DNA of 64,000 nt from Austropuccinia psidii (Eukaryota; Basidiomycota; Pucciniomycetes; Pucciniales; Sphaerophragmiaceae). Below the pieces are notes generated by a model. That model did no database searches, had not been told where the DNA came from, and saw only the letters and a program-made list of their open reading frames with translations. The stretch lies in contig JALGQZ010000011.1 of the NCBI GenBank assembly GCA_023105745.1, forward strand, positions 20,548,975 to 20,612,974, written 5' to 3'. The position numbers and the translations under genes are program-made. Positions 12,847 through 64,000 of the stretch are shown here, one piece after another; within the stretch, counting starts at the first letter, position 1, and every line of letters begins with the position of its first letter.

Positions 12847-12965
12847 CTTTTGTTGGATATACTCAAATGTTTTAAGCTTTGTTATAATTTTTTTATTACA
12901 AGATTAAAATTGAGTTACAAGTTTAACAAGATCTATTTCTTTGGGAAAGATTGGCTCAATCTTTC

Positions 12966-13866
12966 CTACTCCTTGTTTTTGAATTCCATCAGAGTTCTTG
13001 CCATGTTGAACACATTGTCAATGGCTATCTTTTCTTTCTTTGGGATTCTGTAATTCTGCGGGTAAGGCTTGTTCCATTTGGGCTTTGCCTTTTGCTTGCC
13101 ATTCTGATTGGTATTTGGGGCTTGCTTGGTATTTGTTTGCACCTGTTGAGGCAGATTTTTGCTGGTGGATGCTTGGGGAGCTTCCACTGGGCTGTTTTCC
13201 TTGCCTTGGGCCAACTTCTTCTTCTGATCTTCTGATAAAATGCTTTGGTTTTTCAGCCAAGCTTTTATCTGTTGGACTTGTCCTTTGCAAGACATTGGTG
13301 TCCAACCCTTCAGAAGGTCCTCTGTCTTTTCTGGCCCCACGAATTTCTTCACCTGAAGATAAGAGTTCATGGTGCCTATCCAAAGACTTGGGAGAAGTTC
13401 CCACTCTTGCTGTTTGGCGGCCATAAACCAGTTCTTGTACTGAGACTGGTAAATCTCCACTTCTTCCTGTTGGAAATGATTCAGGTCTAACAGAAATGGC
13501 AGTTATGTCATCTTCTGGACTCTCAATAAGGGGTTCAAAGGTGCTGGTTAACCTTTGGGAACTGGTGGAAGTTCTGGCATCCTCCATTTGTGCCTCTACT
13601 CTGGGATGACATTCTTGTATTTTTGATTTGTGACTGGAATGTCCTGGTCCAGATCCATTTGATTGGATGGAGTAGTTACTTCCACTTCTAGTAGGAGTCA
13701 TTTCACGTCAAGTTTAAGAGAAAATAGACTAAGAGTGGATTGAATTCACCTGCTGGACCCTGAAAGGGTTCTTTGGTTATTAAACCCCTTGGTTCTGGGC
13801 TGGTTTGAATTTCAATACTAGACTCTGAGGCTTCAGAGTCTGAATAGCTGTCTCTAATTGATGACA
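12966..13866 (-). CDS. element A spliced accessory ORF (predicted, C-terminus truncated)
   Basis: Predicted exon 13866-13750 (after CTCTAG, before GTGAAT) joined to exon 13486-12966. The donor leaves one base, the acceptor side supplies two, and the frame continues into [20 protein letters not shown]. Including an A from the preceding exon to make the ATG, the product would be about 212 residues: an acidic Ser/Glu start, a helical W/Y-rich middle (MNSYLQVKKF, GWTPMSCKGQ), a Lys/Pro/Gln linker and a conserved NYRIPKKEK...[12 protein letters not shown] end. An early TAG (12966) removes the last 11 or so residues. It overlaps gag in the +1 frame. No known domain is recognised. The splice sites are inferred, while the conservation is seen. 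Confidence 0.6.
13018..13701 (-). pseudogene. element A Gag N-terminal region, overlapping the accessory frame
   Basis: Starts at the first ATG after a roughly 1.5-kb ATG-free leader, in the context TTGACGTGAAATG. It encodes MTPTRSGSNYSIQSNGSG and a Ser/Gln/Arg-rich, probably disordered region. It ends at TGA (13018-13020), where B, D and E have GGA, a single G-to-T change. That change alters only Met to Ile in the overlapping accessory frame. The low-complexity composition here is what one expects of a frame overprinted by another constrained gene. Confidence 0.8.
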
Positions 13867-14120
13867 CTAGAGAAAAATAAAAAATATAAGTTATTTTATC
13901 AAACAATAAAAATAACTTATAAACTCAACTTATTGAATAAAGTTGTTTTATTGTAATTTATGGCAAATTACGTCAAAAATAAAGAAAAAATGTCTAAGAT
14001 AAAAGAAAAAATGTTTTTAGTAAAGATTTTTAATTTTTTAATTTTTTATTTTCTTTAAAGAAATAACAATTATGCAATTAAAAAGTTTATTAATCAAAAT
14101 TGTATTATTATTCACTTTAT

Positions 14121-14177
14121 ACTAGAATAACTCAAAGAATAAATTTCAAGTCTGTGATGTGAAAAAGCCACTAGTTA
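14121..14177 (-). promoter_or_regulatory. conserved leader block of element A
   Basis: In sense orientation it reads TAACTAGTGGCTTTTTCACA, then TCACAGACTTGAAATT and TATTCTTTGAGTTATTCTAG. The same block appears in B, D and E although the leader around it is unalignable. It contains a possible splice donor TTTGA|GTTATT (exon end at 14132) that would hand an A to the TG starting the accessory exon. A packaging or dimerisation signal is an alternative. Confidence 0.5.
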
Positions 14178-14383
14178 GACAAAAGAAATTTATTCCAAGT
14201 CACTAAATAGTATATTGTTTCAAAAAATATTATTAAGAAAAAATAACTTTATTAATATTATAAAGATTATTTATAAGGGATAAGTCCCAAAAAAGCCAAT
14301 ATTAAGTAAAATATGGAAATTTTACGTCAAAAAACAGTAAAATAAGGTCTAGAATATGATTTATGTCCCCAAAACTGGTTAAA

Positions 14384-14401
14384 ATCACGGCCAGGCCCCC
14401 A
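14384..14401 (-). promoter_or_regulatory. primer-binding site of element A (tRNA-Pro-like)
   Basis: The minus strand reads TGGGGGCCTGGCCGTGAT two bases after the LTR end CTTACA. Its complement ends in C-CCA and has a C where tRNA position 61 would fall. A discriminator C73 is typical of eukaryotic tRNA-Pro, and the MLV proline site also begins TGGGGGC. The exact host tRNA cannot be checked here. Confidence 0.75.
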
Positions 14402-14403
14402 AA

Positions 14404-16358
14404 TGTAAGGTTTGTCTATGAAACTCTTGATAATAGTAGCAAAATCAAGAGTACTATGACTGTCCTCAGTAGAAATATATAATATAACAAAATATTATAA
14501 CCACAAATTTAAATATAATTATTAAAAATAATTATATAAAAAAATAAATTTAATTATTATTATAAAAATATAATAATTATAATAAATTATAATTATTCTA
14601 TTATTGTTATAGTCACTGACAGTTATAACAATAAGAAGTGTAAAGCTTTTAATGAGACAATTACACGTGGAAAATATGAATATTAAACACTTATAAATAA
14701 TATAAATATTATTTATAAAAGAATTAAACACACACTGTGTAGAATTAATTCTTATAGAATAAAAATTCTATATAAAAAAACTAATAATAGATAAAAAAAT
14801 ATAGAACTTTAGAGAAAAACTTACTTATAATATTTATTTAATACAACAAGTCAAACAACAACAGTTATTATATTAAATAATAATTACAAGTTGAAACACG
14901 CCAAAAATCAATAATTTTAAATATAAAACAACCTTTTATAATAAAAATAAATATTAAAGAGTTTTTAAGAGGAATTTGTGGATTTGAAAAGATATTTAAG
15001 ATGATTTAATTTTATATAATAAAATATATTATTGGTGATTACAACAATAATATAAACTCTATGATTTCAATTATTTGATTTTAATAAATAAAGAATAAAA
15101 TAACTTAAGAATTATTTTAATGATAAGATTTTATATTTAATAAAACTTTACCTGTTTAAATTTCTAATATGATTGGATTGATGATGAATTGATGGACAAA
15201 AACAGTGATGAAAAGACTCTTTTTATGTCTTCAGAGCAGCTCTCATGATTCATAATGGATATAGAGGGCGTGCTCAGGTCAAAACTGAAAGACCATGCTT
15301 AAAGTTAAAGCTCTTAACTTAAGGTAACTTAATTTTAATTCCAATTTAAAGTTAACAGGGTTATTCTTAACTCCATGTAACTTTAATCCTCATTTAAACT
15401 AACTATTTTAAGTTTTTAATATAAATAAGCTTATTTATATTAAAGTTAATCACATGAACAACTTAAAAATAGAGTTTCAAGCAGAAATCTCTTAAGCTCA
15501 ATTTTTAATTCATTTTTTAAAGAAATTATAATTTTCTTTGAGCTTTAATTAAAAGAGTAAATTTCCAGGCTAATTACCCAGGAAATTTATATATGAAAGA
15601 TATTTAAAATTTAATTTATATGTAGATAATATTAAATTGTAAGCTGTGTGAAATGTTCAAGCAAATTCCTTGAGAATTGGATTTTTAATGAATTTTTGAA
15701 GCTATTGCTATTTTTCCATGTAAAATAGCAATACACACCAAACCTTAAGTTTTGATAAGGTTTTAATGCTTGTAACCTTAACCTTTTATGCTTATTTAAG
15801 CTTTTTAAGCTTAATTAAGCTTTGAAAGTTCTTAAAACCTTGAATTCAGGCCTGCATATTGGGATTTACCCTCTTGGCAGCTTGAAATTCCTGTCTAATT
15901 TGGGATAAAACCAGTTTGAACTTTAATGTTGGATCAAAGTCTGATCTTAAAGTTTAAATAAGGTTGAAAGTCCTCCAATACAGGTGGACAACCTTAATTG
16001 AATCCTTGCAGATCCAAAAAGCTGGGTACCCCAGCTCTATTTGGTCTTTTTCCTTTGTCCCACGTTTTTGTGTGGATTTCGCCCTTTTCTTTATTTAAAG
16101 CCATACTATGGCCTTAAACCCTTTTAAATTGAGCTCACGCAGGATTTACATTCTGTATGGCAAATCCTTAGCCAATTCAGTAAATATACACCACACCTCA
16201 ATTTTAACTAAAATCTTGGTAAGTTTGCATAAACCTTATGCAAATTTAAATTTAAGCTTATTTAAGCTTAAATTTAACAATTTCAAAAAAATGTTAAAAA
16301 AGTTACATTAGTACTATGAGATTCTTAAATCTTCTAATAGCATAAGAAATAAGTGTTT
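14404..16358 (-). mobile_element. element A 5' LTR (right), truncated
   Basis: Begins TGTAAGGTTTGTCTATG and follows the left LTR to ATAAGAAATAAGTGTTTTT at 16358, where it jumps into element B LTR sequence. The last 250 bp or so (start of U3) are lost. It keeps the TATA-like ACATAAAAAGAG (15218-15229), a possible donor AAACAG|GTAAAG (15152/15151) and a perfect 9-bp U5 hairpin (ACTCTTGAT at 14423-14431 with ATCAAGAGT at 14444-14452). Confidence 0.85.
15218..15229 (-). promoter_or_regulatory. TATA-like box of element A 5' LTR
   Basis: Sense sequence GACATAAAAAGA. No ATG occurs in the sense strand from here to the gag ATG at 13701, whereas ATGs are common upstream in U3, which supports transcription starting about 30 bp downstream, near CACTGTTTTTGTCC. 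Confidence 0.6.
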
Positions 16359-17281: not shown

Positions 17282-18189
17282 TGTTATATATTAGAGAAAG
17301 CTCTTCTGACTTTATAATATCAGATGAAAGTGTTGAAATTCAAAACAGTCTAAGACCAAGAGGTTAAATTACAAAAAAATCCTTTGAAGGTCCAGAAGGT
17401 AAATTTCCCCATTTCTTAGTCAAATTTTTGCAAATTGATGTGAAATGGCTCCTAATAGAAGCAGAACTAACTACTTAATCCAATCAAATGGATCTGGACC
17501 AGGAAATTGAAGTCATAAATCCAAAACACCAGAATTTCATCCCAGAGGATAGGCACAAATGGAGAATTCCAGAGCTTACACCAGTGTTCAAAGGTTAGCC
17601 AGCACTTTTCAAAATCTTATTGAGAGTCCAGAAGCTGAATTAACTGTTATTCCTGTTATCAGATCTGAACAACTTCCACCAAGAAGCAGTAGGGATATAG
17701 CAGTCTCAGTACAAGGAATGCTTTATGGAAGCAAAGCAGAAGGAGTGGGAACTTCTTCCAAGCCTCTGCATAGGGAAAATGAACTCATATCTTCAAGTGA
17801 AAGAGCTATTAGGATCATCAAATAAGGATGACCTTCTGAAAGGTTGGACTCCAATGTCTGTCAAAGGGCAAGTCCAACAGATAAAAGCTTGGTTGAAAAA
17901 CCAAAGCATGTTAGAATAGGATCAGAAGAAGGACAAAGGCCCTGTGGAAGCTCAACAAGCCTCCACAAGTACAAAACACAGGAAAGAAAGCCCCAATGAA
18001 CAACCAGAAGAGGAATAAAAGGGAAAAGGAAAAGGCCAAGTTCCAGTGGGACAAGCCTTACCCTCAGAATTACAGAATTCCAAAAAGAGAAAAGATGGCC
18101 ATGGACAATGTGTTCAATGTGGCAAGAACTTTGATGGAATTCAAAAAAAAGGAGAAGGAAGAAATTAATCAATCTCATAAAAATAAATA
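17282..18189 (+). pseudogene. element B accessory ORF remains (predicted two exons)
   Basis: The exon 17282-17398 follows TTTGTAG and precedes GTAAAT. It is 117 nt, exactly as in A, with one TAA inside. The acceptor TTATCAG at 17661-17662 precedes 17663, from which the +1 frame reads LNNF, then QSQYKECFMEAKQKEWELLP, GWTPMSVKGQVQQIKAWLKN and YRIPKREKMAMDNVFNVART. A TAG at 17697 and another before 17920 break it. The decay is later than the family split, since the phase and both splice-like sites are still intact. Confidence 0.55.
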
Positions 18190-41213: not shown

Positions 41214-41872
41214 TTCTGGAACCTTAATCTGGCTTCCTCCTTCTTCTGTAATTCCATCATGGTTCTGGCCATCTGAATTACATTTTCCATGGCATCCTGC
41301 TGAATCTTTGGGATTCTGTAGCCCTGGCTGTAAGGTTTTGGGGCTGGTGCCTTCCCTTTGCCCTTGTTTGGAGTCTGTGGCTGCTTTTTCACGTTGGAAT
41401 TGCTGCTGCTGGCCACTGGGGCTTTTTTAGCACTGGTTTGGGTGGTGGAGGGTTGTTTTTCCTCCATTCTAGTGTCAAAAGCATCATGTTTTTCTTCTCC
41501 ATCAATGGATGCCATCCATTGAGCAATTTGCAAGTGTTGGGATGGCCCAAGAATTTTCTTACTGTCAGGTAAGAATTCATGCAATTCTTCCACAGGTCTG
41601 CAAGGATCTGGTACTCCTTGAATTGAAGTGCATTGTTGTATGCACTGTGGCTGGCTTTGTATATGTCCACAGAGGCTTGTTGTGGCGGTGTCAGCTCTTT
41701 TTGAAGGTAAAATGGTATTATCAGCTTCAGAATGACCCATTTTAGTTGTTTGGAGGTCATCAACTGACCCTTTTCCTTCTGTACCTGATTGGCCTCTGCC
41801 ATAATCACGTCTATTACCTTTTTGGGAGCTGCTAGAGGGGTTGTAGCTGGCTCCTGACCTGTTTGAAGGCAT
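41210..41872 (-). pseudogene. element C Gag N-terminus running into the accessory frame (frameshifted)
   Basis: The ATG at 41872 is the gag start (MPSNRSGASYNPSSSS), the first ATG after a leader free of ATG from 42342. A one-base change in an A-run near 41490 shifts both overlapping frames, so this ORF begins as gag but ends with the accessory C-terminus (GYRIPKIQQDAMENVIQMAR). The gag frame proper resumes as the 41213 reading frame. Confidence 0.75.
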
Positions 41873-42119
41873 AATTATGGTTAAAAAGGCTTAAAATAGT
41901 ATTTTTACGTCAAAAACTTACTAATGGCCAAATTTTTAGCTTTCTGAAGGGTATTACTTATGTCCAAGTTAATCAATGCAGAAGATATTGGTTCAGGTTG
42001 GTTATTTTGAGTCACAATAACAGTACTATTATGATCAGAATTAACAGTACTGGCAGGGATAATGCTGGTTACTGTTGAGGCTGTTTCAATGTTTTCTTGT
42101 CTTACCACGTTGTCAGACA
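41210..42119 (-). pseudogene. element C accessory ORF (predicted two exons, one frameshift)
   Basis: The exon 42119-41922 follows GATTTTAG and ends before the consensus donor GTAAGT. It is 198 nt and open throughout (SDNVVRQENIETAS). The acceptor AAAAG precedes 41696, joining in frame to LTPPQQASVDIYKASHSAYN and LWKNCMNSYLTVRKFLG. The shift near 41490 breaks it, and the conserved YRIPK...MARTMMEL end lies in the frame one base away. C is the most diverged family here, yet the exon phases and the 26-nt distance from the acceptor to the IxIY codons are identical to the other four. Confidence 0.55.
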
Positions 42120-42324
42120 CTAAAATCAATGAAAAAGCCAATTAATTAAGTAAAAAAAAGGTTATTTCAAAAAAAGAAATAAAATATAAGCCTCACTTAT
42201 AATATGAAAAAAAATTATTTTTTATGGATTTTTTGGATTATAAGTATTTTTTATATGTTTTTAAATTTTTCAATATAAGAAAAAAGATTTAAAAAGAGTA
42301 AAAAAAATATGTCACAGGTAAAAT

Positions 42325-42342
42325 ATCACGGCTGGGCCCCCA
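42325..42342 (-). promoter_or_regulatory. primer-binding site of element C
   Basis: The minus strand reads TGGGGGCCCAGCCGTGAT, two differences from the A/D/E site, two bases after the LTR end. The first eight bases are unchanged. Confidence 0.75.
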
Positions 42343-42344
42343 AA

Positions 42345-43048
42345 TGTAAGGTGTGGATATGAAACTTTGATTAAAATCAAGTACTTTTCCTGTCCTCAAA
42401 ATTTGTATAAGGTAAAATTCAATTAAAAATAGTAAGAAATATTATTTTTAAGAAAAAACACGCCTAATTTATTGTTTATAACTTTATTAGTATAAAACAA
42501 TAATATTATAAAAATTTATTGTTTTACCAACAATAAAAATTTATCCCAAAAAATACTCTACAAGAGATATTTTAAGGCTACAAAAGAAATTTCTTCAAGA
42601 GTAATTTCAATTGGAATTAATTGAGCAAAGAACTGCAAGCAATTAATTAAAGAACAAAGTCTTTAAAAAGAATATTAAAGAGAAAACACGCCCAAAAGTG
42701 ACCAGAGTGAATTTGGAAACAAAGTGACAAAGCTAACAGTGATGAAAGATGCTTTAATTCACTTTTGGGGTGGTTCAGGGGTAAAAATGATTATAAGAGT
42801 TACAAACAATGATTATAATGATTTTTTCACGTGGTTAAATGGATTAAAATGATTTAAAAATGGTGGTTGGAATCTTTGATTGATTGGTTTAACAGTGTTT
42901 AAACTAATTAATAAAAGGAAAAGATTCTAACATGAAGAGAAAAGTGGGGCAAGGAAGACATTCTTTTATAGCCATCAATTCTCTTACTCCAAAAGTAAAT
43001 TTTACTCTTCTCAGTCGTGAAAAACAGTCTGACAACAGAAAAGCCAAT
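42345..43048 (-). mobile_element. element C 5' LTR, first 704 bp, split by element E
   Basis: Matches 34089-34792 with about seven differences by eye, then breaks off at AAAAGCCAAT, where E begins. The TATA box lies at 42963-42973 (sense GGCTATAAAAG). The only sense-strand ATG between it and gag is at about 42930, at or before the expected transcription start. Confidence 0.9.
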
Positions 43049-44425: not shown

Positions 44426-46348
44426 TGTGAGCCTTGAGGTATATTTTACATACCCAAATAGGCCACAATTATCTTAAAAAGAAATTTTGAATTATGCAAA
44501 ACTCATAAGTCATGCATATATCCAAAATTCATCATTTTCAATTTCAGAAAAGATGAATAACTTTTTATTGAGTAAGTAAATCCATGGATTTAAGACCAGA
44601 TTTGGATTCTACACAAAAATTCACCTAGGGTAGCTCCATAGAGTGAATAAGCTCAATTTAAGTATTTGAGGTGGTAAAATGGAAAATACTTCAATACCAC
44701 ATCATTAATACCACATAAAAGATCCGTGAAAATTTTTGTTTTTCTTGATTTTTAGCCAAAATAATGGGAAAGTGAGAAATCCCATGTTACATATACACTA
44801 AGAATAGTGTTATGCATGTTTTGAGCACTTAATATCATGGTATTCTTACATGGACTTTTGGTACACCCATAGTGGATATCTCACTTTAAGCTTAAATTAC
44901 TATTTTGACGTAAAAAATAGGCAAGGGGGACAAAAGACATCAAAGAGAGCCAGGGTACCCAACTTCTGAGGCCTCAGAGGCGTGGATAGCTCCAGAGCAT
45001 GGATCCATGGCTCATCTTAGCCTAATTGGTAAACTAAAACTCTTTGGGAACTTGGTTACCAAGTTACAACTACTGTAAAACATCAGAAAATAGCAAATAA
45101 CCTGCTATTTTGACGTGCCAAGGAGGTAATGAGCTACTTACACTCCTGTAACCATGTCAATTACTAATGACTTTCCATGGATAAACCCCAAAAGAGTAAT
45201 TAAAACCCTTTTGGGACCCATATTCATTGATTTACCTCATAGCAACCAGCAAAACACTGCTATTTGCAATTCTACGTAGAAATGAGGTAAAACCTTCAAA
45301 AATTCATTAAAAATACAATTCTTAATGAATCTTTCTGAAACTTTCAGGACTAAAGGAGAACTGTATTATCTATGGTACAACCAAAAGGAATTACAGTTTT
45401 ACTAGTAAAATTAAAAGTTTTACTTACAGTCCATTTTTGGATATTCTACGTGAAACACTGAATCTTCAAAAATTCACAGTAATTACAACCTGTGATGAAA
45501 TTGGCAATAACATTGATAACTTTGAGAAATCAATGATTATTTTAGAATAAAAGAAGATTTACAAGTGTTACTCCTTTTATTCTTAACCATATTGGGGTTG
45601 GTAGTCACGTAAAAGCATCAATTAAGTAATTATGATAATCTTACATGACAACAGATGATGCAATCAATAATCCAAAAAGGTTTATTGTTTTCTCACTCAC
45701 TGGTTTTTCAGTTTGCTCCATGGCACGCCTCTGTGAGCTGTTATTGACTTAAAAGAAGCCTCTTCTTGCTGTTTTTTCCGTATCATCATCATCTTATCAA
45801 TTTATTAAATCTTTATTACCAACAAGTAAGTATTAGTTCAACTATTCTTAAGTGTTTTAATTCTTTCAGAATCAATCAGAAAGACGTGAAATCATAGAAT
45901 CCAACTATATATTGTTGTAATACTGCTATAAATCCTTTTGATCCCTTAAATCCACAATTCCACGTCAAATTTCTCTACTTTTATTATCAATAAGTTCTTT
46001 GGAGTATTAGTGAGTCTTTTATCTTTAATTCTTAAAGTTTTTCTCTAGTAATAGTTTTCTTCAAGAATTATCTTTATAATTATTCTTGTAAAAGATAATT
46101 ATATATTAAAATAATTTTATTATTTTAATAAAAGAAGTTTTTATTATTAAATTCTTCTTGTAATTGATTCTTGTAGACAATTACTGCTCACTGTTATAAT
46201 CACTAGTAGTGTATAACACGTGAAAGAAATAATTTTATAATTATTTAATTGTGGTTATAATAATATTTATTATTATATTTCATAAGAACAGACATAGTGC
46301 TGTTGATTAATAGTAATATTATCATCAGTTTCATAGTCACATCTTACA
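44426..46348 (+). mobile_element. element D 5' LTR, 1923 bp
   Basis: TGTGAGCCTTGAGGTAT to GTCACATCTTACA. A TATA-like CTTAAAAG is at 45748-45755 and an initiator-like CTGTTTTTTCC at about 45770. The consensus donor ACAA|GTAAGT is at 45825/45826. U5 has an imperfect hairpin (CTGTTGAT 46300-46307 with ATCATCAG 46321-46328). I count 12 CpGs: 9 in ACG, 2 in CCG, 1 in GCG and none in TCG. Confidence 0.95.
45748..45755 (+). promoter_or_regulatory. TATA-like box of element D
   Basis: CTTAAAAG, weaker than the CTATAAATAG of E but at the equivalent place upstream of the shared CTGTTTTTTCCRT start-site region. From here to 47045 (1290 nt) the sense strand has no ATG. Confidence 0.5.
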
Positions 46349-46350
46349 TT

Positions 46351-46368
46351 TGGGGGCCTGGCCGTGAT
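46351..46368 (+). promoter_or_regulatory. primer-binding site 1 of element D
   Basis: TGGGGGCCTGGCCGTGAT, two bases after the LTR terminus, identical to A and E. Confidence 0.8.
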
Positions 46369-46440
46369 TTTATCCATAGACTTGGCTTTAATCATATTCT
46401 AGACTTCATTTTTGTGTTCTAAAAAACCACCATACCTACC

Positions 46441-46470
46441 ACATCTTACATTTGGGGGCCTGGCCGTGTT
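46441..46470 (+). repeat. duplicated LTR terminus plus second primer-binding site in element D
   Basis: The 28 bases at 46339-46366 (last ten LTR bases, spacer and most of the primer site) recur exactly at 46441-46468, an offset of 102 bp. The second site reads TGGGGGCCTGGCCGTGTT, so 16 of 18 bases agree. A, C and E have only one copy. It probably arose by template switching during minus-strand initiation. Confidence 0.9.
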
Positions 46471-46628
46471 TTTTGAACCTTGTACCCTTAATTAATATAT
46501 TTTTAAGCTCCAAAATATATTAATTTAATTAATTTTTTTCTTTCAATTTGGAGTTAAAATATTTTTATTTTTGAAATTGTTTTAAAATCTTTTTCATTGA
46601 GGAATTTGGTTTAATTTTATATTGTTTT

Positions 46629-46685
46629 TACACGTGGCTTTTTCACATCCAAAAACTTATAAAATTATTCTTTGAGTTACTCTGA
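46629..46685 (+). promoter_or_regulatory. conserved leader block of element D
   Basis: TACACGTGGCTTTTTCACAT onward to TTCTTTGAGTTACTCTG, shared with A, B and E within otherwise unalignable leader. It contains a candidate donor TTTGA|GTTACT at 46675/46676. The intron to the exon start at 46836 would be 160 nt. Confidence 0.5.
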
Positions 46686-46835
46686 ATTAATTTTCATTCA
46701 AAATCTTAAATTTTAATTTTTTTCTTTAAAAAGAATAATTTTTTAATATTAAAAAATATAAAACTTATAAAAATCTTTAAAAAATATTTTAAAAAGTATA
46801 AAAAATAATTTTTTCTCTTTTATAATTTCTTTTAG

Positions 46836-47823
46836 TGTCTTTAATCAAATACTGTGCAGCTGGCAACAGACTCAGTAAAAGATATATCACTAGTCCAGAA
46901 TCTTCAGAAGCAGAATCTGAAGACAGTATTGAGGTGCAGATTGCTAAAAGAGGCACCTTATTCAACTCAGAAAAAGCTAAATTACCACCAAAAGGTGTGT
47001 ATTTTATCTTATATTTTCACCTTTTATCTTTAAATTGACGTGAAAATGGTGCATACCAGAAATGGAAGCAACTATTCAGTCCAACCAGATGGATGTGGAC
47101 AAGGAAGAGGCAAGACCAAATCCAGAAGTGCCAAATCTTCCACAAGAAAGGCACATCTGGAGGATGCCAGAGTTGCCCCCCATTCCCCAAGGTCTGTACC
47201 AACAGATTTTGACGTGAATTCTGAGCCTGAACTAATTTATGATAATATTTCCAGGGCTGAACCATTTTCAAGTGGCAGCAATAGAAATATATCAGAGCCA
47301 GTACAAAAATTGGTTCAGAGCAGCCAAAGAAGAGGAGTGGGAAATCTGCCCAAGCCTTTGGCAGGGGGCCATGAACTCCTACTTACACATCAAGAGCTTT
47401 CTGGGTCAGGAGAAGACCATAGAACTCTTAGGAGGTTGGAGCCCCCTGTCTTGCAAAGACAAGGTCAAAAAGATAAAGAATTGGTTGAAGAACCAGAGTC
47501 TTTTATCCATAGACCAGAAGAAAGAATTGGAAATGACTCCAACTTTGGAGACAGAGGCACCAGTGGCATCTACCAGCTCCAAACCAGCTCCAGAAGCATC
47601 CAAGGACAAGCCCAAAGGACCTCAAAAGAAACAGAGAGGTCCCAAGAACCATCAAGGCAAGGGCAAAAGCAAAGCCAATTGGCACAGACCTTACCCACAA
47701 GGGTACAGGATCCCCAGATTGGAGCCTTCAGCCGTGGACAGTGTCTTCAATATGGCCAGAACTCTTATGGAATTCACAGCCAAAGAGCAGGAAAGGATGA
47801 ACAGGACTTTTCCACGCAAATAA
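46836..47823 (+). CDS. element D spliced accessory ORF (predicted, about 242 aa)
   Basis: Exon 46836-46994 follows TTTCTTTTAG and precedes GTGTGT. Exon 47255-47823 follows the acceptor ATATTTCCAG. Both join in frame (phase 1). The first exon encodes an acidic stretch (SPESSEAESEDSIEVQ). The second encodes the conserved domain [52 protein letters not shown], a basic Pro/Lys/Gln linker and YRIPRLEP...[11 protein letters not shown], ending TAA at 47821. It overlaps gag in the +1 frame for about 190 codons with both frames open. No membrane segment or signal peptide is visible, so it is not an envelope. Intron and start codon are inferred. Confidence 0.65.
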
Positions 47824-55559: not shown

Positions 55560-58500
55560 TTATTTTTCAGGTTTTCTTTCATGTCTGAACCTTCTTAGTA
55601 ATTTATCAGCATTTGTTATATCTTTCTCAAGTAGCCATTCATCTTCTTGAGTTGAATTTCTATACCTCACAAGGTATTCCCTTTCTTTTTTGTTTCTTGT
55701 CCTTCTTTCTTTAAGGACTTTTACTATTTTCTTTTCCTCTCCTTCCTCCAAGGGGGGAATTTCAAGTGGGGGTTTATTTCTTAGTGGAAATAACTCCTTG
55801 TCACTTGAACTGTAAGGTTTTATCAGACTTACAGGGAAAGTTGGGTGTTTGTTCATTAGTTCACCTGTGAGTTCTAGTTGCACAGCATTGGGTCCATGAA
55901 GTGCTTTTATCATAAATGGTCCTGCAAAGGAATCTTTCAATTTCTTTGTGCCTTTTATGTTATTGAAATTAAGGGTTGATACTAAAACCAAGTCCCCTAT
56001 TTTGAAGTCAGGTGGCTTATGACTTTTATCCCATCTTTCTTTTGCATATTTAAAAGAATCTTGCATGCATCTGTTTGCATGGTGTCTTGCTTTGTCAAGC
56101 ATTATCTTGAAACTGCTTGCTGTTGGATGTATATCCACTAACTCCTTTTTGAGGGTATCATAAGGAAGTCTTGGATTCCAACCTTTCTCTAGCATTGCTG
56201 GTGTTTTGCCAGTAGAAGAATGGATTGATGTCTTATATGCCAGTTCAAGTGCTGGTATTAGTGTACACCAATCATGGGTAAAACCATCAGAATCTTTGAA
56301 TTCTAGCCCATAAGCACAGAATCTTCTGATCATATCCTCTAGGGTTTGTATCATTCTTTCTGCTAGACCATCAGTTTGAGGATGATAAGCTGTTGAGAAT
56401 GATAACTTTGTCCCAAACAAGTTATGGAGGTTTGTCCATAATGCTGAAGTGAACTTTGGGTCTCTGTCACTTATAATATTTTGGAATAAGCCTGTGTGGC
56501 TAATGACTTTATTCCATATCATTATGGCTGTATCCATAGCTGTGTCATCTTTATGACATGGTAAGAACATGGGAGTTTTACTGTACCTGTCAACTAACAC
56601 TAGACATGCATTATAACTCCTGTCTCCTCCTGGAGGTAAGGCTGTTACCCAATCCATATGAACTATTTCCCATGGGGATTTTGGTTCTTGGATTTGGATC
56701 ATCATTCCAAATTTCTTTCCTGTGGCTCTGTTGGCTTTTTGACATCTGTCACAGGTTTGGCAGTACTCTGCAACATCTTTCTTCCAATTTGGCCACCAAG
56801 AGCAGGTTTTCACCCTCTCTAGTGTCCTATCTTCTGAGAGATGTCCAGATGCAACACTATCATGACACTCATGTAAAATAGTGTTTATTAGTGTTCTGTC
56901 TGTTAAGGCCATAACACATGTGTGTTTTGTTCTATGGTAAAGGATTCCATCAAGGAGGTGGAATCTTCCTTCATCATATGCTTTTTTCCATATTTCATCT
57001 AGTTTTGATGAAAGTGATGGATCTTTGCAGTCTTTCATTAGAAGTTGGCTTAAGATATGGCAATTTTTGTCTGTCTTATAGCTTTCTTTAACTTGGTTAA
57101 AGAATTCTGTGCCAATGTCTGTAACACATATTCCTTCTATATGGTGCTCTTCTTGTGGTACCCATGCTGGATTGTCAGGGGTATTTCCTAGAGCCCATCT
57201 GCTAAGACCATCTGCATTTTTATGAATCTTTCCAGATTTATGAACAATAGTCATATTTCCTCTATATTCTTGGATAGCAATCTGCCATCTCAGCATATGT
57301 CTATTTGGAGTCTTCATATTTAATAGTGATTTCACAGCATTACAGTCTGTGATTACATCAAATACTGTGCCATCCAAATAATAGTGCAGTTTTTCTAAAG
57401 CCCATACTAGGCATAAGCATTCCATTTGGCTTGCTCCATACCTTGCTTCTGTTGGCTTTATCTGCCTTGAAATGAAACAAATTGGTCCTTCCACTGGTTT
57501 ATCATTGATAATTTGTGTTTGGTGAAGTGCAGCACCTAGTCCTTCTCCACAAGCATCAATGTACAGTTTGAAGGGTAGTTTCCAATCTGGCATTAGAAGA
57601 AATGGGGCATTTGTTAAGGAATTTTTCAATTCTTCATATGCCTTGACTCTTTCTTCTGTCATCTCATAGACTGTTTGTTGGTCACATAGCTTATACAAGG
57701 ATTTAGCAATCTTTGCAAAGTCCTTTATATGCTGTCTATAGTAACCAGCAAATCCTAGAAATGATTGCATTTCTTTTTTGGTTTGAGGCATTGGCTTAAG
57801 TAGTACTGCTGCTACTTTATTTTTGTCTATGCCTAGACTAAGGCCAGATACTACATGTCCTAGGGCTTTTAATTCACTATATGCAAAATGACATTTTTTC
57901 AATGAAATTTTCATATTTACTTGGACTATTTTCTGTAGTACCCTTTCTAGTCTTGTCAGGTGATTTTCCCAAGTTTCTGAGCAAACTATGATATCATCAA
58001 TGTAGATTATTAACCATCCTTCTGATAATTCTTCAGGAAATATGGTATTCATCATTCTTTGATAATGGGAAGGTGCATTTTTTATCCCAAATGGCATTCT
58101 TAAGTATTCAAAAATTCCACAATGGACTATTATTCTTAGTAGTTTCTTGGCATTGTCTGTTAAGACATTTTGATGAAAACCCTTAAGAGCATCCATAGCT
58201 GTAATGAACTTAGCTTGTGACAATTGGGTCAATGTCTCATGGATTCTGGGTATTGGATATCTGTCTGGAATGGTATAGGTATTCAGGGCTCTGAAGTCTC
58301 CTACCATCCTTGATTTTCCATTATGCCAAGTTATAATGACAGGTGTAGTAACTTCTACTTGCTCATTATGTCCAACCTTTCTTAATACTCCAAGGTCCAT
58401 TAATTCTTTAATGTGCACCTCTAAGGCTTCTCTAGCTCTTGGACTGGCTGGATAAGCAGGTCTTCTTAATAAAGGTGGGTAAGGTTCTTCTACATTAAGA

Positions 58501-61358
58501 ATTATATCCACCTCATGTCCAATTATGGCACCTAGTGGCTCTTTGTCAGTTGCAAAGGCATTTTTATACTTAAATAAGAGGTCAATCAATTTTTCTTTCA
58601 TTTTTTCTGTTAATTCTTGATTGAATTCTGCCTCTTTGAGTTGTTCAGATATGAAAAGTTCTTTTTCTGGAATTTTTTCCTCATTCTTAATAACTGTCAT
58701 TTGTTTTTTGTTATTTAAGAATCCAAACTTTTGTCTTTTATTATCTCCTATGGTAAAATATCTATCCTTTTTGTTGGAGATATCTATACCATAGATTGAT
58801 AAGTAGTCATTTCCAAGTATGAAATGATTACTAGTACAGTTGTCCATTACTACAAACTCTACTTTAATTCTGACACATTGTGAGGGATGAGGAAAAATTA
58901 GTGTTAAATCAATTATTCCAAGGGGCTTCATGCTTTCACTTGCACTACTAAATTTGACACCTTGTATTGGCATAAGTTTTTCTTGCCAGTCTGGGACAAT
59001 GGTTTTTAAATAACTTTTGCCAACACAGGTGCAATATGCTCCTGTATCCAGGTTAACCTTTCCTTCTTGGTTATCAACCATAACAATACTAATACTTGAT
59101 TTCCCAGCTGTATATCCCATTCCTCTTGCAGGTTTTGTTCTATACATTTTGGCATCTTGTATGTTTGTCAGATTTGTGTCAGATGTTCCAACTTGTGGTA
59201 AGTTTGAGTTAACATCCAGTACTTCATAAATTATATCAATATTATTAATTTGTGCATTAATTATATTGATTTCATCACTTTCAGAGCTCTCTGACTCTTC
59301 TGTCTCTTTTTCAGAGTCAGATTCCTCTTCTTTGTCATTGTGGTTTTCTGTTTCCACAATTTCATTGATCTTTGCTTTTTTAAGGCAATTATTGGCTAAG
59401 TGTCCAATACCTCCACATTTATGGCATTTTCTTTGCTCATTATTGTTGGATGTATTGGGTTTAAAGGATTCTTTTGATTTATCTTTCTTGATAAATGGTT
59501 TATTTGGGCTTTTAATGTCCAATTTTTTCCAAGTCCTGCCAATTTTTGTTCTTGTCACTATATCTTCTAGTGCATTTATATACTCTTCTGTGGAGCATGG
59601 TTCTATACACCTGCTTCTTAGGGCATGTTCTAGTTCCCCTCCACATTTTTTAAGTATTTTCATATGCACCATCTTCTGTGACATTTCTGGGTACAGTGCA
59701 TTAAGCCTTTCAACTTGTTTTAAGAACCAAGTTAAAGGTTTATCTTTCTCTGGGTCAAAGAAAGAGTTTTCAAATGCATTTTCTATCTTATACCTCCAGG
59801 CATCATTTGCCCACTTGGTGATTATTTCTTGTTTCCACCAAGACCAGGTATTTTTACCATTTGTCTGTCTTATGCCATAATACCATCTTTTTGCAGATTT
59901 CTCAAATAATGAATGTAATCTTGCAGTGATTAATTCATCTGGTATGGCATAGTCTTCTTGTAAAATGTCAATTGTTTTAATAAATGACATGTGGTCATAT
60001 TCACCTTCTCCTGTGAATGTTGGCCATTCTTTTAATTGAGGTGCTTCCTTCATTAAGACTTGGTTATTGTCTTGGTGACTCAAGTCTGTTATGAAAGGAT
60101 TTGACAATTCCTCTTTTGTTTTAACAGGGCTTCTTATATGAGAAAATGGTGTTGATAACTTTGGCATATTTAAGTTAGCCTCATTAATTTTATCCATTTT
60201 TTCTGTAATAAGCCTTATTTCACTTTGAATATCATCTTTCAGATGCATTCTTGCTTCATCACTTTTTTCCACATGGTCCAAAAGTAATTTTTGGTGTGAT
60301 GAAGTCTTTTCTTCAAATTTTTCTACAGAAATACTTAATTTATTTAATTTTTCTGTAAGATTGTCAATACTCACATCATAATTGATTGTCAAAGTCTTAT
60401 CTTTGATATCTTTTATGTATTTATACAATTCTTGTTGTCCTTGTATTAATTTTTGAGTATTGTCAATTAAATTCTTTGGTTTATTATTTTCAACAATAAA
60501 CTTAATGTTGTCAATTTCTTTCTTGTTTTGCACAACAATTTTTGTTAAAGAAGATAAATTGTTATTTATTTCTTGTAGTGATAATAAACTGTCTTTAATT
60601 TCTTTTAGAGGTAATATACTATTTTTAATTTCTGTTAAAGTATTTACAACATCTTTGGACAAGGTTATTTCTTTGGGAAATGAGGTTGTCTCATTCTTTG
60701 TTCTTCCTTGTCCTTGAATTCCATCAAGGTTCTGGCCATGTTGAAAACATTGTCCATGGCATCCTTTTGGATTCTTGGGATTCTGTAGCTTGGGGAATAT
60801 GGTTTCCTCCAATGCTTTTTCTTGTTCTTCTTCCCTTCTTGGGGAAGTGGGTTGGCTTGAGGCTTGCTGGTAGAAGCTACTGGGGCTTCTTCCTTGGTTG
60901 CCTCCCTCTTTTTGGCATGATAATCCTTGATTTTTTTGATTTGAGGTTTGGATGACAGTGGATTCCATCCATTGGAGTATTTCACTATCTCCTCCTCTTT
61001 GAGGAACTTTTTCAGGATGTGCCAGGAGTTCATCACTCCTTGGTGTATTTGAGGCAGCATTTCCCAGTCTTTGTCCTTGTATACTGTGTAATACTGCTTG
61101 TACTGGCTCATGTAGATGTCTATCTGAGCCCTCTGAATGTGATTTGTACCTGTTTGAGTTACTCATACTTAGTTCCAATTCAGGCTCAGATATCATGGGC
61201 ATTTCTGGGACTTGCCTTTGGGATAAGGCACTTCCTTGTGTGGATTCTGTTCCACTGGGGATGTTGCCCTTTCTTTTCCCTTTTGAGGGATCAATTCTAC
61301 TTCTGAGTCCAGCTCCATCTGATTGGATGGAGTATTGGGAACCTCTTCTGGTAGTCAT
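55560..61358 (-). CDS. element E Gag-Pol polyprotein, 1932 aa, intact
   Basis: One frame from ATG 61358 ([17 protein letters not shown]) to 55560. Residues 1-230 are Ser/Gln/Arg-rich and overlap the accessory ORF. About 240-420 are coiled coil ([19 protein letters not shown]). The capsid-like domain is at 445-590 ([18 protein letters not shown]). The CCHC knuckle [14 protein letters not shown] is near 642 and the protease [11 protein letters not shown] near 770. RT YIDDIIV is near 1118 and RNase H YIDACGEG near 1266. The integrase HHCC is near 1500-1530, with Asp/Asp/Glu in VHMDWV (about 1565), SDRDPKF (about 1630) and GLAERM (about 1665). A chromodomain-like [15 protein letters not shown] tail is near 1890-1925. 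Gag and Pol share one frame, so their ratio is not set by frameshifting. The chromodomain would guide integration to chromatin. It is the only full copy here. Confidence 0.95.
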
Positions 61359-61582
61359 AATTAAAGAATAAGAAAAAATAAAAGTATTTTAGAATAAAAT
61401 TCTTTTATGGCAATTTAAAAAGAGGTGCTCACCTTCAGAGTCTTGAATGGTGGGCCCTGGAAAGTCTAATTTCTTAGCTTTCTTTCTTTTGGTGATAACT
61501 GGTGTAGGAGAACTTTGACAAGTTTCTTCCACCAATCTTTCAACAGTAGTTTGGTTGTCTTCTGTTGGGTTATCTTCAAACA
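60665..61582 (-). CDS. element E spliced accessory ORF (predicted, about 211 aa)
   Basis: Exon 61582-61433 follows CTTTTTTAG and ends before the donor GTGAGC. The 283-nt intron ends in CAAACAG, and exon 61149-60665 follows. The phases match (G|GT gives Gly). The first exon encodes [12 protein letters not shown] and a basic KRKKAKK patch. The second encodes [42 protein letters not shown], a Lys-rich linker, and [20 protein letters not shown], ending TAA at 60665. In the unspliced +1 frame there are stops just upstream of the acceptor (TAA, TGA), so the open frame begins where the splice site is. The gag frame is also open throughout. Function is unknown. Confidence 0.65.
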
Positions 61583-61860
61583 CTAAAAAAGACAAATAAA
61601 TATAAGTCTTTTTATAATAAGTGTTATTTTTGGCAAGATATGGCAATTTTCCACGTAAAAATTGCTTTTATATCTTAAAAAAATGAAATAAATGAATAAA
61701 AATGAATAAAAATAACTTTTTTTATTGGTTTTTAATATTTTTTTGATATTTTTTATGTATATTTTTATTTTTAAAGAATAAAATAAAGAATGAATATGAT
61801 TCTTATAAAATTAAATTATAATAAAAATTATTTTTAATTTATAAATTATCTTTTTTAATC

Positions 61861-61917
61861 ACTAGAGTCACTCAAAGAAAGTTCTTGCAAGTCTAAGGAT
61901 GTGAAAAACCACGTGTA
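61861..61917 (-). promoter_or_regulatory. conserved leader block of element E
   Basis: Sense TACACGTGGTTTTTCACATC to CTTTCTTTGAGTGACTCTAG, homologous to A, B and D. The candidate donor TTTGA|GTGACT (exon end 61872) would give a 289-nt intron and supply the A of an A|TG start. Confidence 0.5.
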
Positions 61918-62060
61918 AGACAGTACAATTGCTTTCCAAATGCCTCAATAGCTTTTAAAATCAATAAAATATAAAATTATTATATAATTTTATGATTATA
62001 AATATAATTTATTATGGATAAACCCAAATAGAATCTTTTTTAAAGGTCTTTTAAGTAAAT

Positions 62061-62078
62061 ATCACGGCCAGGCCCCCA
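62061..62078 (-). promoter_or_regulatory. primer-binding site of element E
   Basis: The minus strand reads TGGGGGCCTGGCCGTGAT, identical to A and D, two bases after the LTR terminus. Confidence 0.8.
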
Positions 62079-62080
62079 AA

Positions 62081-64000
62081 TGTAAGGTTTGACTATGAAA
62101 CAATAAGTAAAAATTACTAATTTATTACTTATTGTACTCTGAATGTCCTTATAAATTGAATAAATAAGATTAAAAATATAATAATAATAAATAATTATTA
62201 TTATTATGGCGTAAAATAATTATATTATTAAATAAATATAATAATATAATTTATATTATGAAAATATAATATAATAAATAAATATATTAATATAAAATAA
62301 TTAATATATTGAAAAGCTCTTTATTATTGTTACCAACAAATAATAAAGGCGTAAAAAATTGTTTTTTATTAATAAAAAACAATTAATAACAATAATATTA
62401 CTAATATTAAAGTTATGAATTAATATAAATACTATTTATATTAATTAAAGAGTTATTAAGAGAGTAATAATAGAGAAATTATTATAATAAGAGAGAATAA
62501 CCTACTTTTAACACTTAATATAATAATTTTGAAGTATTTTACGCCAAAAAATATAAATACAACTTTTTCAAATTGTATTTACAATAAAAATAAAGAAAAT
62601 TACAAATTATTCTGGATTTTTACGTGGAAATGAGTTTTAGAGAGATTTTTAACAAAAACAATTAAATAAATGATTTAATCACGTCAAAATAGATGATTAT
62701 AGCAAGGTGGTCTTTGGTCTTTAATAATATAATGCTTTTATATATAAAGAATAAAGAAAATTACCTTTTGATTTAATTGATTTAATGTTTTTGATGCGTC
62801 TGAGGGGAAAACAGAGTAAAAAGAGCTCTATTTATAGTAAATACCTCCCTCCTAGAGTCCAACAGGCTTCTAGTAGACGTGTACTGATCATATCCACTGG
62901 AATTGATCAATACTTTAAGGTTTGAGGGTGATTACATCATGATCAAACCATATTACATCATTATTGCACCATTATTTAGAGTTATCACTATAACTCTAAG
63001 TGTGATGACATCAGAGGCTTGGCAGAACCCCAAATTTCGTGGATTTTATTAGTTTTAATCATAAACTAATAGTATTCACCAATTTTATCACTCTTAAGAC
63101 TGTTAAGCTTAATTTAAGGTTACAGTATGTGATCATAACAGCTCAATTTAAGCTCAAACTTTGATCCTCAATAACTTTTAAGGTTTTCACGCTACAGCAA
63201 TTCAGAGAGTGAATTCTGATAGCCTGACATAACCTTATTATGCTGCCAAGAGCTTTTCATTACATCATCAAAACTCTAATTTTGATGATTTTTCTTGTAA
63301 CTCATCTTTTCTGTCGAAATTCAATATTTTAAACTTCAAACCTTGATTTCAGGGGGTTATACCCTGAATTTAATAATAAAAATTACATCATTCTTCACGA
63401 ATGAACTAGTAGAATCCAACTGTGTACTTTTTTTTAAGTTTGGAGCACTTTCACAACAAAGTGGTCAACAGCTCTGTTGATTTTTATCAATATTTCATCA
63501 TAGGTTTTAACCTTGTTTATAACTTGTAAAATAAAGTTCATATCTGTGTTCTTACAGTAATTACGTGGTAACTTTATTTTTGGTTCATCATTCTATCATG
63601 TATATTTTAGAAGATATTAGCTATGATCACTGAATATATGCGTTGACCAAAAAAGTGCATATATTCAGGATAATTCCTTAAGTATTGATTTTGGGAATTA
63701 GCTTATTAATTGTTTTATATGTGGATTTTTGTGGGGAATCCACTGGTACAATTTATTTTACATGTTGTCTCATTAGTTTCTGAGATAAATAAGTTTTTAT
63801 GGTTTTTATAAGGTATTATACCTTATAATTCCTTAAATATTGACTTTACAGATATGCCATAAAAATGGTATATGTGTATTTTTCCATGGGGAATCCAATG
63901 GTATAATTTATTTCACATGTTCATTCATTGGTTTTTAAGTTAAACCAATTTTAATACCAATTTATGGTATTTTTTGTATATTTGGGTAATTATTTTTAGT
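62081..64000 (-). mobile_element. element E 5' LTR (right), running past the window end
   Basis: TGTAAGGTTTGACTATG matches the left copy. It contains a perfect 10-bp U5 hairpin (CAATAAGTAA 62101-62110 with TTACTTATTG 62125-62134), the strong TATA box (sense CTATAAATAG, 62828-62837) and a possible donor AAAAG|GTAATT (62765/62764). The sense strand has no ATG from the TATA box to gag (about 1.48 kb). The final roughly 82 bp lie outside the window. Confidence 0.93.
62828..62837 (-). promoter_or_regulatory. TATA box of element E 5' LTR
   Basis: Sense CTATAAATAG followed about 30 bp later by CTGTTTTCCCCTCAGACGC, the likely start region. ATGs (CAT on the plus strand) are absent from here to gag and reappear just upstream (62890 onward). 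Confidence 0.75.

Follow-up and report, generated by a model that had tools for sequence, protein, structure and literature searches.

A predicted spliced accessory gene hidden in the +1 frame over gag of Ty3/gypsy retrotransposons of Austropuccinia psidii

The window analyzed here is a 64,000-nucleotide (nt) stretch of contig JALGQZ010000011.1 of the fungus Austropuccinia psidii, and its element E is, by domain order, a Ty3/gypsy long terminal repeat (LTR) retrotransposon that carries a second open frame over gag, hidden at +1 to the gag frame. We regard this hidden frame as the likely last exon of a spliced accessory gene; removal of the intron holding the gag start codon would turn translation over to the hidden gene. 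The splicing itself is a strong prediction from the exon layout and phasing in four elements of the window. The gag-pol of E is a single open frame without a stop (55560-61388, minus strand, 1,942 amino acids [aa]), pieces of which match zf-CCHC, RVT_1, RT_RNaseH, Integrase_H2C2, and rve in this order; from the gag start codon, the uninterrupted frame (55560-61358) comprises the zinc knuckle, reverse transcriptase, RNase H, and integrase.

Exon layout, phasing, and selection

All features of E lie on the minus strand. The +1 frame over its gag is open for 165 codons (60665-61162). Predicted exon 3 (60665-61149, with the stop) holds the conserved accessory-protein domain and overlaps gag, and the third reading frame over this exon has 10 stops. 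Three stops of the +1 frame (61195, 61171, and 61165) stand just 5' of an AG at 61151-61150, and the stretch shared by the E frame and its counterparts in elements D and A begins directly 3' of this AG. Upstream in the leader lies exon 1 (61433-61582, 150 nt), which is open in the N/TG phase, lacks an ATG, and is bounded by a 5' acceptor, TTTTTTAG/TGT, and a 3' donor, GAAG/GTGAGC. Between the two lies exon 2 (61216-61347, 132 nt), which is at +1 to gag and contains the ATG that comes first once the exons are joined. The sole ATG of intron 1 (61348-61432, 85 nt) is the gag start codon (61356-61358), the first base of which is 11 nt 5' of exon 2. Intron 2 (61150-61215, 66 nt) is of the GC-AG type, and its retention would bring the three stops into the accessory frame. 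This layout supports predicted junctions at 61433/61347 and 61216/61149 and a predicted spliced product of ~255 aa.

A sequence-only reading of this DNA had described a conserved +1 frame over a gag frame that also stays open, conservation that starts directly after an AG, stops just upstream of that acceptor, and an open 150-nt upstream exon (61582-61433) that ends in GTGAGC in a phase fitting the last exon. Each of these points was borne out, the first by homologous frames in elements A, C, and D and by a decayed counterpart in element B. Its proposed junction, 61433/61149, was right in the donor at 61433 and in the start of the last exon at 61149, but the direct join had overlooked the middle exon (61347-61216), the presence of which gives a predicted product of ~255 aa instead of the 211 aa that had been proposed. 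The claim of a real protein made from a spliced RNA is well supported by the four-element comparison and, in part, by gene models of other copies; the protein itself remains predicted.

The homologous frames over gag lie on the plus strand in D and B and on the minus strand in A and C. In D, exon 1 (46836-46994), intron 1 (46995-47059, with the gag ATG at 47046), exon 2 (47060-47191), intron 2 (47192-47254), and exon 3 (47255-47823) give joined exons that are stop-free and would encode 286 aa. The corresponding exons 1, 2, and 3 of A are at 13750-13866, 13553-13687, and 12933-13486. In C, exon 1 (41922-42119) is followed by an intron 1 that contains the gag ATG (41872), exon 2 (41769-41858), intron 2 (41697-41768), and exon 3, which can be followed as far as a frameshift (41389-41696). 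The decayed copy in B retains an exon 3 remnant (17668-18178) and an exon 1-like stretch at ~17282-17399. The acceptor of exon 1 is T-rich and reads TAG/TGT in E, D, A, and C, and TAG/TGT is found in B as well; exon 2 of E, D, A, and C starts at a YAG located 11 to 14 nt away from the A of the gag ATG.

The phasing of these exons is consistent across elements. In the order E, D, A, and C, exon 1 measures 150, 159, 117, and 198 nt and exon 2 measures 132, 132, 135, and 90 nt, every one of these lengths being divisible by three, and all exon junctions are in phase 1. The lengths of intron 1 (85, 65, 62, and 63 nt) differ modulo three (1, 2, 2, and 0), so that the register of the leader frame relative to gag varies among the elements, yet the frame it joins is always the hidden one; intron 2 measures 66, 63, 66, and 72 nt. 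In the phase that the junction requires, exon 1 is free of stops in all four elements. Dinucleotide shuffles of exon 1 were open in 248, 105, 740, and 29 of 5,000 cases for the four elements, the product of these fractions being 9e-7 with the multiple-of-three condition not yet counted. A retained intron 1 would lead to a stop in the exon 1 frame in every element, and a retained intron 2 would bring stops into the hidden frame in three of the four, the frame staying open in C. Across exon 2, the hidden frame is open in three of the four elements, with the motif SNQM common to E, D, and A and the motif RMPELPP common to D and A.

Selection on the two frames over exon 3 was assessed by counting differences per codon position in pairwise nucleotide alignments of E, D, and A, where position 1 of a gag codon is position 3 of a hidden-frame codon. 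Differences were most frequent at gag position 1 in every pair (positions 1:2:3, 90:54:47 for E-D, p = 2.3e-4; 87:54:44 for E-A, p = 2.7e-4; and 93:49:42 for D-A, p = 3.9e-6, with 26 out-of-register columns excluded), and they still peaked there when exon 3 was aligned as gag protein (p = 7e-4, 5e-3, and 2e-4). On the hidden-frame alignment, amino acid identity is 49/50/60% for the hidden frame and 30/31/33% for gag; on its own alignment, gag reaches 34/36/34%. Of the two frames over exon 3, the hidden one is the better conserved and the main target of purifying selection, which is the opposite of selection on gag only, the outcome that the sequence-only reading had named as speaking against its proposal.

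ATG-free leaders, start-codon switch, and predicted protein

Counting both strands, the four gag leaders (1,542, 1,530, 1,323, and 1,058 nt) are the longest stretches of the window that lack an ATG. Each would be expected to contain 14 to 20 ATGs, and trinucleotides with the same three bases in another order are frequent in them. The leaders occupy the region from the LTR promoter to the gag ATG (61359-62888 in E, which makes 1,530 nt on the minus strand 5' of gag; 45723-47045 in D; 13702-15243 in A; and 41873-42930 in C). In all four elements, intron 1 contains a single ATG, that of gag, and the first ATG of joined exons 1 to 3 falls in the hidden frame. Removal of intron 1 deletes the gag ATG and leaves a hidden-frame ATG as the next one, so that the start would pass from gag to the hidden gene upon splicing. 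As exon 1 is devoid of ATG, its translation requires a start at or before its 5' junction. A putative LTR donor of E (AAAAG/GTAATT, 62762-62769, minus strand, exon side ending at 62765) sits downstream of a TATAAA (62836) and is a candidate for the end of a leading exon 0. The best-scoring LTR donor of D has a terminal A, which together with the TG at the start of exon 1 would form an ATG on splicing; the best-scoring LTR donors of E and A end in G.

We propose that on unspliced RNA, ribosomes would start at the cap, scan the entire leader, and produce Gag-Pol from the gag ATG, and that splicing of the LTR donor to exon 1 and then to exons 2 and 3 would yield the accessory protein (~255 aa in E and 286 aa in D). 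In D, the start would be the A/TG assembled at the junction of the LTR donor and exon 1; in E and A, it may be a GUG, the exon 2 ATG, or a start supplied by another donor. Where an element depends on spliced as well as unspliced RNA, the latter has to be exported, and a basic nuclear protein made from the fully spliced RNA may aid the nuclear exit of unspliced genomic RNA, as do CERV of the Ty3/gypsy element Cer1 and Rev of complex retroviruses. Export of unspliced genomic RNA is the weakest step of the proposal and is put forward, by analogy, as a tentative best guess.

Several properties of the predicted protein bear on its role. The net charge of exon 3 is +16, +13, and +13 in E, D, and A, and exon 1 of E contains the stretch KRKKAKK, which we take to resemble a nuclear localization signal. 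Structure models of the E exon 3 open reading frame (ORF) and of a full-length C-type relative feature a helical bundle and a long C-terminal helix, together with a linker modeled at low confidence; the portion from exon 1 is mostly unstructured. Weighing against any assigned function, the exon 3 ORF matched no Pfam family at 1e-3, a comparison of 40 aligned members with Pfam gave a best E value of 0.0014 for one member, and the best sequence match in the PDB had an E value of 0.94, none of these hits being significant. Furthermore, reading of the products of E, D, and C and of the alignment revealed no conserved cysteine cluster. The analogy makes early regulation of unspliced RNA the most likely role of the hidden protein, with a structural or chaperone role about as likely. 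The latter, in which the gene is as described but its product is a matrix-like or chaperone-like nucleic acid-binding partner of the particle instead of an export regulator, is a serious contender that falls somewhat short of an even chance. It would suit the positive charge and the modeled helical bundle, lysine-rich stretch, and long C-terminal helix. Against it, under the splice model, the protein would be made only from RNA that lacks the gag start, which would be expected of early regulators.

Some further features of the leaders were observed. Donor-like GT sites that follow an A, located in U5 or the leader, are present at 62505, 46010, 14824, and 42196 and would give A/TG with exon 1. 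CpG retention is far higher in the leaders (10, 9, 6, and 6 CpGs in those of E, D, A, and C, against 17 to 21 expected) than in the window (160 against 1,573 expected), and 5 of 10, 5 of 9, 4 of 6, and 3 of 6 of these leader CpGs, in the same order, lie within ACGT. By eye, some ACGT sites of A appear in the decayed element B as ATGT, restoring ATGs.

Gene models of other copies and competing readings

A search with the E +1 frame matched 832 proteins at an E value of ≤0.001; the 120 among them that were listed are all from A. psidii MF-1, and the closest of these are up to 97% identical to the +1-frame protein, a similarity that very probably places the origin of the window in this fungus or one closely related to it. 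A second search, in which the query was the N-terminal 96 residues of the E product as predicted, gave 22 A. psidii MF-1 proteins, here called the E-type set. These gene models are predictions, not transcripts, and the junction counts for the 120 listed C-type models, obtained with fuzzy patterns, are rough. The exon 1/exon 2 junction was found at the predicted place in 10 of the 22 E-type models. Among the 120 listed C-type models, 23 cross exon 1/exon 2, 21 cross exon 2/exon 3 with intron 2 removed, and 12 show both junctions and follow the hidden frame through all three exons. Seventeen models start exactly at the residue after N/TG (9 of the 22 E-type and 8 of the 120 listed C-type), and a single one among 142 E-type proteins scanned, P0142, which has no exon 1, crosses exon 2/exon 3. 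The deposited A. psidii models thus use the same junctions in part. Two further observations concern individual proteins: in P0133, P0136, and P0138 of MF-1, leader exon 1 is joined to the frame of gag, so that a Gag with a different N terminus would result, and the C-type protein P0157 (ENA, 607-nt contig, 124 aa), which is 99% identical over 69% of the query, reads through intron 2.

A number of points count against the spliced accessory gene. All 10 E-type models with the exon 1/exon 2 junction continue into the gag frame and not into exon 3; in 9 of the other 12, exon 1 is spliced to the gag frame, and of the remainder, 1 retains part of intron 1 and 2 have no exon 1. Of the 120 listed C-type models, 96 keep sequence of intron 2, an intron that is open in C. 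Within the window, A is broken by two nonsense codons, one in exon 2 and one ahead of the end of exon 3, and C by its frameshift; the donor of E intron 2 is GC, and exon 2 has no clear codon-position bias. The best-scoring LTR donor yields no exon 1 ATG in E or A, and C has an ATG at 42933, near the presumed RNA start, where its ATG-free run begins.

The E-type models lend weight to an alternative in which exon 1, alone or with exon 2, is spliced mainly to gag and produces a Gag with another N terminus, the hidden frame of exon 3 being expressed in some other way. That all 10 models that cross exon 1/exon 2 enter the gag frame weakens the case for the accessory gene and strengthens this alternative, which has the 9 exon 1-to-gag models on its side as well. 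We nonetheless judge it unlikely: a join at the conserved acceptor that closely follows the gag ATG leads to the hidden frame in all four elements, and the 12 C-type models described above remain in that frame across three exons.

The two-exon form of the sequence-only reading, in which exon 1 (61582-61433) joins exon 3 (61149) and exon 2 is skipped, would preserve the frame, as the length of exon 2 is divisible by three in each of the four elements. The open hidden frame of exon 2 in three of them and the shared SNQM and RMPELPP motifs argue against skipping, and the direct join was found in 0 of the 22 E-type models and its pattern in 0 of the 120 listed C-type models, so that we give this form little credence. 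A programmed +1 ribosomal frameshift from gag near the start of exon 3, yielding a fusion of the Gag N terminus to the hidden protein from unspliced RNA, appears more improbable still. Such frameshifts are said to serve most Gypsy elements (PMC3735527), and in E, D, and A the site would be confined to the 13 to 19 nt that separate exon 3 from the last stop. By eye, these three short stretches share no slippery heptamer, all of them end in AG at the point where homology starts, and a frameshift would leave the phased open exon 1 and the gene-model junctions unexplained. Finally, long overlapping frames can arise by chance, but origin of the hidden frame as a by-product of gag composition can practically be dismissed given its enrichment of differences at third positions, the lower identity of gag, and the recurrence of the same frame in five elements.

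Host elements, known systems, and meaning

The host elements retain similar LTR pairs, with identities of 99.84% in D, 99.0% in C, and 99.35% over the longest aligned part in E. D sits inside the 3' LTR of E and splits it, and the end of C adjoins the same LTR (43044-64000). Behind the LTR, the elements have in common a motif of the TGGGGGCC type that, read by eye, is a candidate primer-binding site; D carries the primer-binding-site motif CTTACATTTGGGGGCCTGGCCGTG twice, at 46343 and 46445, 102 nt apart. Just 5' of the primer-binding site, an apparent stem-like inverted repeat was noted by eye in the four elements (at about 62080-62150, 46290-46345, 14410-14470, and 42350-42400).

Fungal LTR retrotransposons are generally portrayed as gag-pol only. 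In HIV (human immunodeficiency virus), Rev helps the export of unspliced RNA, one of several traits of the Rev-type regulators of complex retroviruses. The sequence-only reading had known of no Ty3/gypsy equivalent of the hidden gene; this view has to be given up, since an equivalent in kind has been published, from which the hidden gag gene differs in layout. CERV of Cer1, a Ty3/gypsy element of Caenorhabditis elegans, is a protein of 517 aa that is made from spliced RNA and required for export of genomic RNA; its exons 1 to 3 are in the gag frame, its end lies in an ORF behind pol, and its cysteine-rich loop is needed for the export (PMC10309623). Like CERV, the hidden gene is an extra Ty3/gypsy gene, here with a predicted multiexon spliced RNA, that lies in part outside the gag-pol frame, and, as in Cer1, the unspliced RNA encodes gag and pol without an intervening stop (PMC10309623). 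CERV family members have at least one exon outside the gag frame, and exons 2 and 3 of the hidden gene are at +1 to gag. In contrast to CERV, the whole predicted product lies within the leader and gag, running at +1 over gag, and splicing would remove the gag start codon. The cysteine loop described for CERV was not seen in the hidden-gene products, and the hidden protein is not placed in the CERV family.

The likeness to Rev (PMC10309623) consists of a protein from spliced RNA, an unspliced RNA that must exit the nucleus, and a basic stretch; the position in the element differs, and the likeness is one of analogy. In the plant Ty1/copia elements BARE1 and EVADE, alternative splicing in or near gag likewise alters coding (PMC3735527 and PMC8892269), but their spliced RNA yields Gag, whereas here a different protein in another frame is predicted. 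The additional ORFs of plant LTR retrotransposons are also conserved extra ORFs of such elements (PMC7264820); the word "overlap" does not occur in that text.

It is conceivable, though doubtful as yet, that a whole fungal Ty3/gypsy lineage uses splicing as a start-codon switch after an AUG-purged leader of 1 to 1.5 kb, with an overlapping gene that controls export of the genomic RNA and constitutes a counterpart of Rev and CERV evolved within gag, in elements that contributed to one of the largest genomes among fungi. The genome of A. psidii is reported to be just over 1 Gb in size, with more than 90% of it consisting of transposable elements, mostly Gypsy (PMC8063080). If the splice reading is true, it would account for leaders of more than 1 kb devoid of ATG, and a single RNA could alternate between two genes that overlap. 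The regulated splicing that typifies complex retroviruses would then extend to elements of the Gypsy superfamily, which dominates this gigabase genome (PMC8063080).
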